The notes under the pieces were generated by a model, which saw only the letters and a list, made by a program, of their open reading frames with translations, ran no database searches and was not told the DNA's origin. A DNA stretch of 64,000 bases from Bacteroidota bacterium (GTDB lineage Bacteria > Bacteroidota > Bacteroidia > NS11-12g > UBA955). Below are positions 21,537 to 27,457 of this stretch, piece by piece (the first letter of the stretch is position 1; the number at the start of each line of letters is the position of its first letter). The position numbers were made by a program, and so were the translations under genes. The DNA lies in NCBI GenBank assembly GCA_005798825.1, contig SYIL01000006.1, forward strand, positions 40,350 to 104,349, written 5' to 3'.

Positions 21537-22637
21537 TCAATTTCCCATGAAGCGGTTTTTGATACGTTTTAAGGTTCTTTTTATGCCAGCGATACTGAGT
21601 GGAAATAGCCATCGAAAACGCTCATTCCACCGAAAATAATAGAGCACGGATTGGTATTCGTCGCGTTGAGAAAAAGAATCATTGCCTATACAAAATATCG
21701 ATTTTACATACTCATTTCCTGCAATCATCGCAAATCCATGAAACTTCATAAGTGCCCTGATACTGTGTAAAGTAAAATGATACACATGGGCATTTTGGTA
21801 ATAGGTCATCGCATCCATTCCATAATTTTTATGGATATTTTTAATCCCGGGTACCTCTATGTATAGCTTTGTTTGCACTGAACACAAACGTCGAATGGCG
21901 CTTATTTCTGCATGTAAATCTAAAATGTGTTCCATTACGTGAGAATACACTATCAAATCTATAGGATCTTCAGAGTGAAAATCTGCCAAAGTGCCAACGC
22001 GAAGATCTAAAGAATGGTTCTTACTGCCGTAATTTATATACTCTGAACCAAGATCAATACCCGTGACTTTGTGTCCTTTACTGCGAAAAAAATCCAAAAT
22101 ACCACCCGCCCCGCAACCCACTTCCAACACACGCATTGGCCGATCAGAAATTTGATTGGCCGAATCCAAAAATTCATAAATCTGCTTCCCTTGCTTTTGT
22201 TGCTCCCGAAAAAAAGCTTCCCCAGCAACTTCAAAACCAACATACAAAGGCCGGTATTCATGATCATAAAAACTAGAATACGCGGTTTGGGTCATTCTAG
22301 GATTGGTATACACAAACCCACATTGTTTACAAATACACACAGAAAAATACAATCCATAACGATCTCTTTCTGCAATGGGCTCAGGATTGTCTGCACTACA
22401 CACCGCACAAAAAACCGATTCAAAATCGTATTCTCCGGTTTTTACCTTATTGGCCACTTCCTGTTTAACCCTAATTTGAATAGGATTTAACACAATAGAA
22501 GGTATGCCTTCACCCATCATTCTCGGGAATAACGCCATTGTTTTTTTGGGTTTACCCAAAACGATTTGGGCCATTTCGGGCAAATCTATACAATTTATAC
22601 TATTGGAACAATCTGGCGATGCAATTGCCCACGGCAA
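21537..22637 (-). CDS. Class I SAM-dependent methyltransferase with N-terminal zinc-ribbon-like region
   Basis: CAVC..CKQCGFVYTNPRMT and RVLEVGCGAGGILDFF methyltransferase motif I. Confidence 0.85.
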   Translation of the reverse strand: MPWAIASPDCSNSINCIDLPEMAQIVLGKPKKTMALFPRMMGEGIPSIVLNPIQIRVKQEVANKVKTGEYDFESVFCAVCSADNPEPIAERDRYGLYFSVCICKQCGFVYTNPRMTQTAYSSFYDHEYRPLYVGFEVAGEAFFREQQKQGKQIYEFLDSANQISDRPMRVLEVGCGAGGILDFFRSKGHKVTGIDLGSEYINYGSKNHSLDLRVGTLADFHSEDPIDLIVYSHVMEHILDLHAEISAIRRLCSVQTKLYIEVPGIKNIHKNYGMDAMTYYQNAHVYHFTLHSIRALMKFHGFAMIAGNEYVKSIFCIGNDSFSQRDEYQSVLYYFRWNERFRWLFPLSIAGIKRTLKRIKNRFMGN

Positions 22638-22921: not shown

Positions 22922-23788
22922 ATGCTGTTCAAAACTCCCCAACTCATAGCCGAAATTGGATGCAACCACAAAGGCGATTTCTCCATTGCAAAGGAGTTGA
23001 TTGTTATGGCCAAGCAAGCCGGGGCACATTTTGCCAAATTCCAAAAACGCAACAATATTGAATTGTTAACACCCGAACAATACCATGCACCCCACCCCAA
23101 TCTGTCAAATGCTTACGGCAATACCTACGGTGAACACCGGGAATTTTTAGAATTTACCACAGATCAGCATGCCGAACTAAAAATCTTCGCTGAGTCTCAA
23201 GGCATTGGCTATTCAACCTCTGTTTGGGATGTGACATCTGCCAAAGAAATCATACAAATTACACCCGAATTTTTAAAAGTACCCTCAGCGTGTAATAACC
23301 ACATAGAGCTCCTTCGGGTCTTGCGTGACGACTTCATTGGGGATGTTCATATTTCAATGGGAATGACAACCCAAGAAGAAGAAAAGGAAATTGTTTCATT
23401 TTTTTTAGAAACTGGCCAAGCCCATCGCTTGGTAATTTATTCATGTACATCAGGCTACCCTGTTCCCTTTGAAGACATTTGCTTATTGGAGATTTTACGA
23501 ATTAAGGAACGCTTCCAAACCACAGTGAAAGATATTGGATTTTCAGGACACCATTTGGGTATTGCTGCAGATATTGCAGCGTATTCTCTGGGTGCTTCAT
23601 GGATTGAACGACATTTTACAAAAGACAGAACATGGAAAGGTACCGACCACGCCGCATCTCTAGAATTTGCTGGTTTACAAAAACTCGCCCGCGATTTATC
23701 GGCTGTATACAAAGCCTTACGACCCAAAGCAACCGAAATACTAGACATCGAAAAAGTCCAACGAGATAAACTCAAATTCCGCGCTTAA
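22922..23788 (+). CDS. neuB: NeuB-family N-acetylneuraminate/nonulosonic acid (phosphate) synthase, apparently lacking the C-terminal SAF domain
   Basis: LIAEIGCNHKGDFSIAKELI, KFQKRNN, GFSGHHLGIAADIAAYSLGASWIERHFTKDRTWKGTDHAASLE; 288 aa. Confidence 0.88.
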   Translation: MLFKTPQLIAEIGCNHKGDFSIAKELIVMAKQAGAHFAKFQKRNNIELLTPEQYHAPHPNLSNAYGNTYGEHREFLEFTTDQHAELKIFAESQGIGYSTSVWDVTSAKEIIQITPEFLKVPSACNNHIELLRVLRDDFIGDVHISMGMTTQEEEKEIVSFFLETGQAHRLVIYSCTSGYPVPFEDICLLEILRIKERFQTTVKDIGFSGHHLGIAADIAAYSLGASWIERHFTKDRTWKGTDHAASLEFAGLQKLARDLSAVYKALRPKATEILDIEKVQRDKLKFRA

Positions 23789-23792
23789 TCCA

Positions 23793-24479
23793 ATGAAAAC
23801 TATTGCCTTTATCCCTGTTCGTGGGGGCAGCAAATCGATACCCAAAAAAAATATTTTGGAGTTTAATGGGTATGCATTGGTTTATTGGGCATGTCTAGCA
23901 GCGCAAAATTGTAGGTCTATAGAGGCAATCATTGTGGCAACGGATTCTGCAGAAATTGCATCTACTGTCGATGCTTTTGGATTTAATAAAGTGCGTATTT
24001 ACCATCGATCGTTAGAAAGTGCCCACGATACATCTCCAACAGAATCTGTACTTTTGGAATATATCGAAGCGGAAAACCCCGACCCAGAAACACATATTGC
24101 ATTGATTCAAGCTACAAACCCTTTCATAACCGCTCATGAACTTCAAAAGGGTTGCGATTTGCTCCTAAAACAAGCTGAAGGATCTGTCATCTCCTGTGCC
24201 ATTTTTAAACGATTTTTATGGGACAAGAATGGGAAATCTCTCAATTATGATTTCATGAAACGCCCACGCAGACAAGACTTTGCTGGGATATTTCTCGAAA
24301 ATGGTTCATTTTATATCAATTCCGTAAAAAATATAGTAGCGACAGGAAATCGACTTACGGAGCCCATTGCTATCGCTGCAATGGCTGAGTATAGCGCCAC
24401 AGAAATCGATGAATTCGAAGACTGGTTGATTGCAGAAAAAATACATAAAAAGTATATCTTAGACATAGAAAAAACATGA
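23793..24479 (+). CDS. neuA: Acylneuraminate cytidylyltransferase (CMP-nonulosonate synthetase)
   Basis: IAFIPVRGGSKSIPKKNI and ALIQATNPFITAHEL motifs. Confidence 0.92.
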   Translation: MKTIAFIPVRGGSKSIPKKNILEFNGYALVYWACLAAQNCRSIEAIIVATDSAEIASTVDAFGFNKVRIYHRSLESAHDTSPTESVLLEYIEAENPDPETHIALIQATNPFITAHELQKGCDLLLKQAEGSVISCAIFKRFLWDKNGKSLNYDFMKRPRRQDFAGIFLENGSFYINSVKNIVATGNRLTEPIAIAAMAEYSATEIDEFEDWLIAEKIHKKYILDIEKT

Positions 24480-24979
24480 ATCTACCCAAACTAATCATTA
24501 CGGATATTGATGGTGTATGGACTGACGGAGGAATGTATTACGACAATACTGGCAACGAATGGAAGAAGTTTAATACCATTGACAGTGCCGGAATTATTTT
24601 TTGTCGTCAACTCGCTGTTCCAATTGCCATTATTACCGGAGAAAATACCAAAATAGTTGCCAATCGTGCCCAAAAGCTCAATATCGATTTATTGTTTCAG
24701 GGCATTACCGACAAACTGCAAGTTGCAAAAGATTTGTGTAAAAAAATGGATATAACGCTGGCTGAAGTTGCTTATATCGGTGATGATTTGGGCGATATAG
24801 ATCTCTTAAAAGCAGTTGGATTTTCGGCTGCCCCTGCCAATGCCAGCGATTATATCAAAGCCTTGTGTAATTATACAACCAAAACCCGAGGCGGCGACGG
24901 CGCATTTCGTGAATTTGTTGAAGAGATTCTCTCGCGGTGTGGAATGATGACAAGCGTTCTAAAAGAATTTAATGTGTAA
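24476..24979 (+). CDS. kdsC: KdsC-like HAD phosphatase (KDO-8-P / nonulosonate-9-P phosphatase family)
   Basis: IITDIDGVWTDGGMYYDNTGNEWKKFNTIDSAGI..AIITGE..AYIGDDLGDIDLLKAVGFSAAPANA; ATGA overlap with neuA. Confidence 0.9.
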   Translation: MNLPKLIITDIDGVWTDGGMYYDNTGNEWKKFNTIDSAGIIFCRQLAVPIAIITGENTKIVANRAQKLNIDLLFQGITDKLQVAKDLCKKMDITLAEVAYIGDDLGDIDLLKAVGFSAAPANASDYIKALCNYTTKTRGGDGAFREFVEEILSRCGMMTSVLKEFNV

Positions 24980-25874
24980 AATCGTGTTTTTCAATACCCT
25001 GCTCAGCATCGCCAAAATACTCGTCAAATCTCGTTGGATTTCGCTTGTAAAGGCAAAAAATGTTGAAGCACTGTATATTGTTGGCAACGGTCCATCGGCA
25101 CTGCCTTTTTTGGCAATGGCCCAAACCAAAACCACTCCAATGCCTTTGTTTTGCGTGAATAAATTTGCAATTAGTCCAGAATTTCACACCTTAAAACCCC
25201 ACTATTATTTGTTGCTCGATGCTGATTTTTTTCTATTTTCTGAAGCCGTATTTCAAGATCCATCCAAACACCCCCGCGTACAATTAAAACCTGAATTCGC
25301 GGTTTACCAAGACCAAATAAACCGTACATGGAATGCAATTTTGGGACATACTTGGGCAATGACATTGTTTATTCCCAGAACCTACAAAAATACTTATGTG
25401 GTTGCATTGGCTATCAAACAAAACATACACATTCAATTTTTCAATTACACTGTAACCCAAGGCTTCGATTGGTTTAAAAACAAGATATACGCTCTGGGTT
25501 TAGGAATGCCACAATCCCAAAATGTTATTCATGCCACCCTGTTTCTTGCAATTCAAATGGGTGTAAAAAATATCTATATCACTGGAATTGATCATGATTT
25601 TCACCGCAACCTAATATTGGATGATTCCAATACACTGTTTGAAGAGGTATCACATTTCTACCACAAAGAACCCTTCAAGCATAAATTAATTCACGCGCAT
25701 GGCAATGGAGAGTCGGTTCGACTCAAAGACGTGTTCTACAATCTTCACAAGGTTCATGTAGGATACCAAGAACTACATCGTTTCGCCAAACATTGCAAGT
25801 GCCAAATTTTCAATATTACACCTGGCGGATTTGTAGATGAATTCCCTCGTGTGTCCACAAACACAATTGCATAG
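24972..25874 (+). CDS. Putative glycosyltransferase, GT42 sialyltransferase / MptE-like (DUF115) fold
   Basis: LYIVGNGPSALPFLAM, LFCVNKFA, LFLAIQMGVKNIYITGIDHDFH and HAHGNGESVRLKD motifs; overlaps the kdsC-like gene. Confidence 0.6.
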   Translation: MCKIVFFNTLLSIAKILVKSRWISLVKAKNVEALYIVGNGPSALPFLAMAQTKTTPMPLFCVNKFAISPEFHTLKPHYYLLLDADFFLFSEAVFQDPSKHPRVQLKPEFAVYQDQINRTWNAILGHTWAMTLFIPRTYKNTYVVALAIKQNIHIQFFNYTVTQGFDWFKNKIYALGLGMPQSQNVIHATLFLAIQMGVKNIYITGIDHDFHRNLILDDSNTLFEEVSHFYHKEPFKHKLIHAHGNGESVRLKDVFYNLHKVHVGYQELHRFAKHCKCQIFNITPGGFVDEFPRVSTNTIA

Positions 25875-25912: not shown

Positions 25913-27457
25913 TTAATCTCGCAATTTGATTCCCAATGGGGCCAAAATCTTCTTGGCCATACTGTGAATGTCTTCACTGAGCCTAAGGTATAGTATTACA
26001 CCAACAGAACCACCCACCAAAACCAAGGTTTTGGCAATAGAAACTCCGATTATATTTCCAATACCCAAATAACCAAAATCTTGCAAGCTCAAAATAGAAG
26101 CCTGGGTATCCCACAAATAATTAAGTATAAAAAACACAGTGAACAAAGCCACGCTGGCGACAACTCGTTTGGACAATGGCTGCATTTTATATATATGCCA
26201 AACAAGAACTGCCATTGCAATACCCGTGGCCAACCAAACACAAGCTGTTGCAATGGCGGCCCCTTCTAAACCATAAATTGGTATCAGCCAAAGTCCCATT
26301 ACTATACCCACAACAATAGCAACAACATGCAGAATTAAGGACAAATAATAGCGTTTAGAGAAGATTAACATGGCTGCAGAATTTCCTTGCAAAAGCACAA
26401 AAAGTTTCCCGATACCCAGGTAAAAAACAGCCCATTTCCCCGATTGATAACGATTTCCATTTGGCATGTAGTGGTATAACAAATCAATATTCACCCAAAT
26501 GAATAACAAAGCAAGCGCCCCAAGCATAAACTGGTTAAGGCTGGTTTTATGATACAATCGTTGAATTTCTGGTTGATCACCCTGATGAATTGCTTCAGAT
26601 AGTTTGGGATTGGCAATTTGTAAGATACTTCTTGTTGGAATTTCAATGAGCATAGCAATGTTTACCGCGATGGCGTAGATTCCGGTTTGGGCAATGCCTT
26701 TCATGGAACTCACCATTAAAAAATCCATTCGCTGCAAAACCAACATGGCCACGTACGTCAAAAACAAATACCCCGTGTATCGATAAAAATCGGGTTTCAA
26801 TCCTGATTGATTATTTACAAATACCATATCTGGCTTGAATGACAATCGGGTGTTTTTCAATACAAACGAAACATTCAATACCATCACTACCGCATATACC
26901 GCTGCGATAGAGTGTATCGTTTGACCAAAATCAACCTTCCCTATAAAATACAACCAACCCAATAATCCCAGTAAAATTCTTACAATATTTTCTCGCAAAA
27001 ATGAAGCAAATACAATCTTACCCAAGGACGCCGAAAAAATTTCAAATACCGTGTTGAATACAAAAAAGAAAACAAAAGGTATCAACCAATAGTAATAGGG
27101 TAAAAAATCTTTGGAATTCTTTGTCAGATAGGCAAAGACCCAGGGTTGTCCAAATACCAATAAAAATGCCACGAAAATAAATCCAATGCTTGGTATCAGC
27201 AATAACCAAAACCCCACACCATTGTGTCCGTTATCATTTTTAAACCTTGGAAAAAATTTCCAAATTGAATACCCTGTTCCCAATTGTGCAACTCCTGCAA
27301 GCAAGGCTCCCATTTCAATAAACAAACGAAAAACTCCGTTTTCACTCGGAGTAAACACCTTCGGAAATAGATAAAACGCGGTAAACAGACCAATAAGACT
27401 GCCGCTATAATTGACTATAGACGCCCAAAAACTATTTCTGGCGATAGCACCCGACAT
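25913..27457 (-). CDS. Polysaccharide flippase / Wzx-like membrane transporter
   Basis: About 12-14 hydrophobic segments, MATE/PST-like N-terminus ARNSFWASIVNYSGSLIGLFTAFYLFPKVF. Confidence 0.85.
   Translation of the reverse strand: MSGAIARNSFWASIVNYSGSLIGLFTAFYLFPKVFTPSENGVFRLFIEMGALLAGVAQLGTGYSIWKFFPRFKNDNGHNGVGFWLLLIPSIGFIFVAFLLVFGQPWVFAYLTKNSKDFLPYYYWLIPFVFFFVFNTVFEIFSASLGKIVFASFLRENIVRILLGLLGWLYFIGKVDFGQTIHSIAAVYAVVMVLNVSFVLKNTRLSFKPDMVFVNNQSGLKPDFYRYTGYLFLTYVAMLVLQRMDFLMVSSMKGIAQTGIYAIAVNIAMLIEIPTRSILQIANPKLSEAIHQGDQPEIQRLYHKTSLNQFMLGALALLFIWVNIDLLYHYMPNGNRYQSGKWAVFYLGIGKLFVLLQGNSAAMLIFSKRYYLSLILHVVAIVVGIVMGLWLIPIYGLEGAAIATACVWLATGIAMAVLVWHIYKMQPLSKRVVASVALFTVFFILNYLWDTQASILSLQDFGYLGIGNIIGVSIAKTLVLVGGSVGVILYLRLSEDIHSMAKKILAPLGIKLRD

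Follow-up and report, generated by a model that had tools for sequence, protein, structure and literature searches.

A compact Bacteroidota operon combining a SAF-less NeuB-type synthase with a predicted KDN-9-phosphate phosphatase

Which nonulosonic acid would be made, and from which sugar, by a locus whose NeuB-type synthase ends without the usual C-terminal SAF (antifreeze-like) domain and whose genes include a phosphatase of the KdsC type? The question is raised by a stretch of DNA of 64,000 nucleotides from a Bacteroidota bacterium (hereafter the window), in which ORF calling located four genes, encoding a synthase (neuB), a CMP-nonulosonic acid synthetase (neuA), a HAD phosphatase and a glycosyltransferase, all on the forward strand between positions 22922 and 25874 (Table 1). 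The packing is as close as a preliminary description of the locus had it, with 4 bp between neuB and neuA, an overlap of 4 bp between neuA and the HAD gene and another of 8 bp between the latter and the transferase gene; the convergent flippase-like ORF and the nearby methyltransferase gene that it listed were also recovered, the latter being divergent. The true start of the methyltransferase gene is probably near 22541, since homology begins at about residue 33 of the called ORF. The operon architecture is repeated in five further genomes of the genus. The operon is, with good probability, a minimal phosphorylated-route KDN pathway starting from Man-6-P, a reading in which substrates, product, residue roles and export are predicted from the observed gene content, domains, residue signatures, phylogeny and presence or absence of families.

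Table 1. Features of the locus, with positions in the window
Feature	Position	Strand	Description	Basis
neuB	22922..23788	+	288 aa SAF-less NANS/NeuB-type barrel, predicted KDN-9-phosphate synthase	PF03102, 210.8 bits
neuA	23793..24479	+	228 aa CMP-nonulosonic acid synthetase, predicted CMP-KDN synthetase	PF02348
HAD (type C0) phosphatase	24476..24979	+	167 aa, predicted KDN-9-phosphate phosphatase	NF058599 equivalog
GT42/Maf-like glycosyltransferase	24972..25874	+	300 aa, predicted CMP-KDN transferase	PF01973, fold match
Flippase-like membrane protein	25913..27457	-	convergent; adjoins cassettes A and B	likeness to Polysacc_synt proteins
SAM methyltransferase (Methyltransf_23)	21537..22637	-	divergent	PF13489, 72.7 bits
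KFQKR motif, K39-R43 of the neuB product	23036..23050	+	K42-R43, proposed sugar 6-phosphate readers	
Lys283 codon of neuB	23768..23770	+	conserved C-terminal/linker lysine beside the NmNeuB Phe288 position	

A synthase family without the SAF domain

The sole Pfam domain of the window synthase is NeuB (PF03102), and the PF03102/PF08666-type profile search that had been proposed as a check found no SAF domain either in the protein or anywhere in the source genome (an assembly of 1.93 Mb, 91% complete), which bears out the earlier description of a NeuB-like protein lacking this C-terminal domain. According to a whole-genome profile search it is the only strong NeuB of the genome, the second match being weak and partial. 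The AF2 model of the synthase (pLDDT 92) has 6ncs (Z 33.5) and 1xuu (Z 32.5) as its top PDB folds, and its catalytic residues K39, H210 and H231 are equivalent to Lys53, His215 and His236 in the numbering of the Neisseria meningitidis enzyme. The PF03102 barrel, the catalytic Lys/His/His set and the fold (Z about 32-33) thus place it in the NeuB/NANS superfamily. Its scores stay below the cut-offs of the canonical N-acetylneuraminate synthase (TIGR03569, 171.3 bits against 399.65) and pseudaminic acid synthase (TIGR03586, 121.4 bits against 340.25) models, and the SAF domain with Arg314 of a canonical synthase is absent from it.

Loss of the SAF domain by a frameshift or an assembly error was considered and rejected, as 80/80 homologues end at the equivalent place; the gap of 4 bp between neuB and neuA leaves no space for a frameshifted SAF. 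A GTDB genome scan, for which an alignment of ten SAF-less synthases served as query, matched at least 593 stretches, at least 565 of which encode relatives. The family counts given here refer to the best 80 of these at least 565 relatives, all in other genomes and 64-76% identical. In all 80 the SAF domain is lacking and the ORF stops 0-9 residues past the match, in most cases with a conserved QRDKLKYR at the C-terminal end. Since these close relatives end at the equivalent place, the absence of the domain is a trait of the family and not a truncation.

The best 80 relatives come mainly from Bacteroidota, and also include records labelled Sulfurimonas, Arcobacter, Poseidonibacter, Novosphingobium, Planctomycetota, Lentisphaeria and others, several of them MAGs whose labels may be wrong. 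A HAD gene lies inside the fetched stretch for 70 of the 80, either as a NeuA-HAD fusion (56) or separately (14), and most of the ten without it reach a contig edge; an unfused neuA with the HAD gene immediately after it is found, among the best 80, only in the genus of the window. The combination of SAF-less architecture (80/80) and a HAD close by (70/80) is far beyond chance. Nothing relevant on SAF-less synthases or on a named phosphate-reading motif was found in the literature searched, which does not prove that such reports are absent.

Phylogeny, residue signatures and the partner enzymes

In the barrel tree, a branch with a support of 100/98 separates the synthases associated with a HAD gene from the canonical rows (ManNAc, Leg and Pse types), Neisseria NeuB among them, as does one of 99/95 in another barrel tree. 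The HAD-associated rows comprised the SAF-less family, a second SAF-less class, the synthases of cassette B (described below), those of the Bacteroides type and the NeuB domains of longer ORFs. The phylogeny called for in the preliminary description therefore places the window synthase outside the canonical NeuB/LegI/PseI types; its grouping as a KDN-9-P synthase is read from this 100/98 branch, in a tree that does not itself include the B. thetaiotaomicron and Prymnesium synthases.

The alignment points in the same direction, with counts that refer to related sequences and not to independent events. After the catalytic lysine, K/R42 and R43 are found in 117/117 HAD-associated NeuBs against 0/16 others, and position 241 is Thr or Ser in all 117, against Pro (15) or Val (1) in the rest. 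Every HAD-associated class has Lys at 283, adjoining the Phe288 position, and none of the canonical rows shown does, in a region where the alignment may be off by one. Moreover, the Arg314 position is occupied by Ser in 23/23 HAD-associated synthases that contain a SAF domain, its presence having been confirmed by Pfam, and by Arg or Lys in 16/16 canonical rows. In Neisseria NeuB, Arg314 is the sole SAF residue in the active site and positions ManNAc; the R314A variant has no activity, and the enzyme does not accept mannose (PMC6795526). Loss of the Arg314 contact, via Ser or via SAF deletion, would fit a substrate without an N-acetyl group, and K42-R43 together with the linker Lys283 are proposed as the residues that hold the 6-phosphate. 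The marks common to the HAD-associated synthases are the KR pair, the linker lysine and the loss of Arg314, SAF loss itself not being a mark of the route. The initial interpretation is supported, the search for a SAF domain and the position of the synthase in the tree both having come out in its favour as refutation tests. It is refined in that the SAF-less state does not serve as the mark of the route, the Bacteroides-type relatives having kept the domain with Ser in place of Arg314.

Some further synthases were observed beside HAD genes. The second SAF-less NeuB class (L080:7268-8140, L026 and L027), 33-34% identical, adjoins a HAD and keeps the Lys-Arg pair, with Trp replacing Lys239. NeuB and CTP-transferase domains are joined in a single protein of 557 aa at L201:5040-6713(+), and a protein of 586 aa at L203:10051-11811(-) gives a weak NeuB match, each of the two having another NeuB and a HAD of the Bacteroides type as neighbours.

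The HAD of the window scores 251.1 bits with the KDN-9-P phosphatase equivalog NF058599 (cut-off 180), and its nearest PDB entries are 3e81/4hgo (6e-58; 59% identity to 3e81). Glu56, Arg64 and Lys67, in the numbering of the B. thetaiotaomicron enzyme, of which 56 and 67 are altered in 4hgq/4hgr, are kept in the window HAD and in all cassette HADs. On the basis of the equivalog score and these three residues, the KdsC-like gene, earlier taken to encode a dedicated phosphatase, is predicted to be that of a KDN-9-P phosphatase.

As for NeuA, CTP_transf_3 (PF02348, 66 bits) assigns it to the CMP-nonulosonic acid synthetase family. Its best PDB match is PpNeuA (9t4z, 8.4e-36), from its name presumably the Prymnesium enzyme, followed by the mouse-type (mammalian) CMAS 1qwj; it also matches PseF weakly, and shares 43-54% identity with the NeuA portion of most NeuA-HAD fusions. 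The transferase has an MptE-like match (PF01973), and its AF2 model (pLDDT 84.6) resembles Maf (5mu5, Z 13.4, 202 residues, rmsd 3.8) and Cst-I/Cst-II (Z 10.4-11.4; 2p2v, Z 11.4, 191 residues, rmsd 4.0), with lower values for mammalian sialyltransferases (Z 7-8). Since the modelled fold, of the GT42/Maf type, matches Maf and Cst-I/Cst-II, the protein is likely a CMP-nonulosonate transferase. The flippase-like protein, with 11 hydrophobic segments and no Pfam hit of its own, shares 27-29% identity with members of the Polysacc_synt family (PF01943) encoded in two loci (L141 and L144), near other SAF-less neuB genes.

In L123 and L141, a homologue of the methyltransferase gene separates neuB from neuA-HAD. 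In several Bacteroides-type loci, the HAD and the SAF-containing synthase flank a similar-looking protein (L198:7297-8046, L200:7954-8703(-), L204:7313-8071 and L205:8240-8989(-)), the L200 copy with a weak Methyltransf_24/TylF match; the window methyltransferase is unrelated to it, hinting at methylated KDN in both locus types. Furthermore, Gfo/Idh oxidoreductase and SDR genes lie downstream of neuA in three loci of Cytophagales/Chitinophagaceae members (L110, L117 and L118), ahead of the HAD in the last two, suggesting a modified product there.

The proposed pathway and its alternatives

The sugar sources were sought as families present or absent in six congeneric genomes (the source genome, G000, and five congeners), 91-100% complete. 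The NeuC/WecB, NanE and AGE families (PF02350, PF04131 and PF07221) were found in none of them; a single absence could be a gap in the source genome, 91% complete, but the five congeners agree. Further, a NeuC/WecB homologue occurs in 0/80 neighbourhoods of the best relatives. The initial remark that no NeuC-type epimerase or other sugar-modifying enzyme is seen is thus extended, for the ManNAc-source families, to the six genomes. As a source of Man-6-P, a type-I PMI was rejected, its catalytic domain being missing in all six genomes. The bifunctional PGI/PMI family (PF10432) is present in 6/6, the copy of the source genome lying at G000:C43:29698-30078, and is a plausible source.

In the pathway proposed, which has established precedents in Bacteroides and Prymnesium (PMC6200933), Man-6-P would be supplied by the bifunctional phosphoglucose/phosphomannose isomerase and condensed with PEP to KDN-9-P by the SAF-less synthase, Lys42-Arg43 and the linker Lys283 holding the sugar 6-phosphate, and SAF loss having taken away the arginine (Arg314 of Neisseria NeuB) that recognises ManNAc by its N-acetyl group. 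The HAD would then remove the 9-phosphate to give KDN, NeuA would convert this to CMP-KDN, and the GT42/Maf-like transferase would place KDN on a surface glycan, which the adjacent flippase may export and the methyltransferase may decorate. The dedicated phosphatase, the missing ManNAc sources and the presence of a PGI/PMI all support the phosphorylated route to KDN, which had been suggested at the outset for KDN or a related acid.

The main rival is the phosphorylated Neu5Ac route of animals (ManNAc-6-P to Neu5Ac-9-P, Neu5Ac and CMP-Neu5Ac), with ManNAc-6-P obtained through an unrecognised enzyme or from imported ManNAc. On the signatures alone Neu5Ac would be possible, because Man-6-P and ManNAc-6-P are both substrates of animal NANS, whose motif presumably resembles that of the window synthase. 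What the KR signature and the HAD class indicate is a 9-phosphate, not the group at C5; NeuA resembles mammalian CMAS too, and the human enzyme accepts ManNAc-6-P (PMC6200933, Table 2). This route is weakened by the missing ManNAc sources, both in the six genomes and around the best relatives, and by the absence of the N-acetyl-reading Arg314, and we consider it unlikely.

It is quite unlikely that another aldose-6-phosphate is condensed to a different nonulosonic or ulosonic acid, possibly methylated. The methyltransferase forms part of the cassette, and the Gfo/Idh and SDR genes between neuA and HAD in some relatives indicate that the family may have several products; however, the genus of the window has only synthase, NeuA, HAD, transferase and methyltransferase, and its HAD shares a clade with the proven KDN-9-P phosphatase. 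A canonical route starting from unphosphorylated ManNAc or a Leg/Pse-type hexose, in which the HAD has no part, would agree with the superfamily of the synthase and with the weak PseF match of NeuA, but is very improbable in view of the tree position apart from the canonical types, the absence of sugar-modifying genes, the HAD linkage with NeuA-HAD fusions among relatives, and the missing R/K314. Finally, that the HAD, a member of TIGR01670 (KdsC/YrbI family), is the KDO-8-P phosphatase of the cell lying beside neuBA by chance is hardly credible, since its linkage is conserved across phyla and a second KdsC, at G000:C30:24740-25195, with G, R and G at the three specificity positions and 99.5 against the NF058599 cut-off of 180, is likely the KDO enzyme of the cell.

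Known systems and cassette exchange in the genus

The KDN pathway of B. thetaiotaomicron, reportedly described by Wang et al. in 2008, comprises a KDN-9-P synthase and a KDN-9-P phosphatase (PDB 3e81/4hgo). The window operon shares with it the phosphorylated route; its HAD is likewise stand-alone, groups in one clade with that phosphatase and is 59% identical to it. The type of the B. thetaiotaomicron synthase is deduced from the loci of the nearest relatives of its phosphatase (class-wide search, relatives up to 72%); next to these closest HADs (61-72%) the synthase has a SAF domain and the CTP transferase is mostly SpsF-like, and in the window the SAF-less synthase and NeuA take their place. 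The Prymnesium pathway likewise leads from Man-6-P to CMP-Kdn, and the window NeuA is nearest in the PDB to PpNeuA, but the organism is an alga and a dedicated phosphatase was not found there. The animal NANS/NANP/CMAS system has in common the sugar 6-phosphate route, and the NeuA-HAD fusion of the relatives mirrors the N and C domains of CMAS; unlike the window synthase, NANS bears a C-terminal antifreeze-type domain, and the literature already mentions some bacteria whose NeuA is fused to a CMAS-like C domain (PMC13214540).

Among the fold matches, N. meningitidis NeuB (1xuu) shares the barrel and the catalytic residues but acts on ManNAc without a phosphate, has no KR pair and carries Arg314 in a SAF domain, and Campylobacter jejuni PseI (8h2c) shares the barrel fold. 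At 290 aa, the Leptospira NeuB-type protein 6ncs is likewise too short to accommodate a SAF domain; it is distant in sequence and outside the HAD-associated clade; for L. interrogans, a NeuB with an extra C-terminal domain has been described and an animal-like phosphorylated route proposed (PMC3438082).

The pathway itself is not new; what is new is a widespread class of SAF-less synthases tied to a 9-phosphate phosphatase. In granular sludge, KDN is the second most abundant nonulosonic acid by mass spectrometry, and its makers could not be named, since databases do not separate KDN from Neu5Ac synthases (PMC10483923). The signature residues may separate the two, and would then offer a direct and cheap sequence test. 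The SAF-less family occurs in cultured isolates, such as Aquimarina latercula DSM 2041, Flammeovirga pacifica and Runella limosa DSM 17973, in which KDN can be searched for, and the short synthase is a natural test of the role of the antifreeze-like domain.

The chromosomal slot bounded by the adk block and the flippase gene is filled, within the genus, by either cassette A (the window type, with the divergent methyltransferase) or cassette B, composed of an SpsF-like CTP transferase, a SAF-containing synthase, a HAD and a glycosyltransferase; the methyltransferase is absent in cassette-B genomes. The glycosyltransferases of both cassettes form one clade (98/97). The window HAD is placed in the Bacteroides-type HAD clade (100/100), apart from the NeuA-HAD fusions; forcing the cassette-A HAD onto the fusion HADs gave a borderline rejection only (AU p 0.048), and the HADs of cassettes A and B as sisters a p of 0.19. 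Because HAD and transferase cluster with the Bacteroides type and with cassette B, respectively, and NeuA matches the fusion halves, cassette A combines two sources, synthase and NeuA coming from the fusion lineage, and HAD and transferase being like those of the Bacteroides-type cassette.

One genome, G401, carries cassette B between flanks 85-99% identical to those of the cassette-A genomes G408, G399 and G404, and whole cassettes have therefore been exchanged, in a manner that may be likened to surface-antigen switching. Retention of HAD and transferase with a swap of only synthase and NeuA was ruled out, the whole cassette having been exchanged between sister genomes, and the mosaic must therefore be older. 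The wider reading, namely a large and so far unremarked family of bacterial KDN-9-P synthases in which mannose specificity arose through the loss of Arg314, by Ser or by SAF deletion, in which the KR pair and the linker lysine would read the 6-phosphate, in which sequence would distinguish makers of KDN from those of Neu5Ac, and of which whole cassettes of two types are swapped at this locus between sister genomes, seems to us evenly balanced. In another genus of the family, the slot is occupied by a pseudaminic-type cassette (L084:636-6520), which includes a gene for a protein distantly homologous (29%) to the window transferase.
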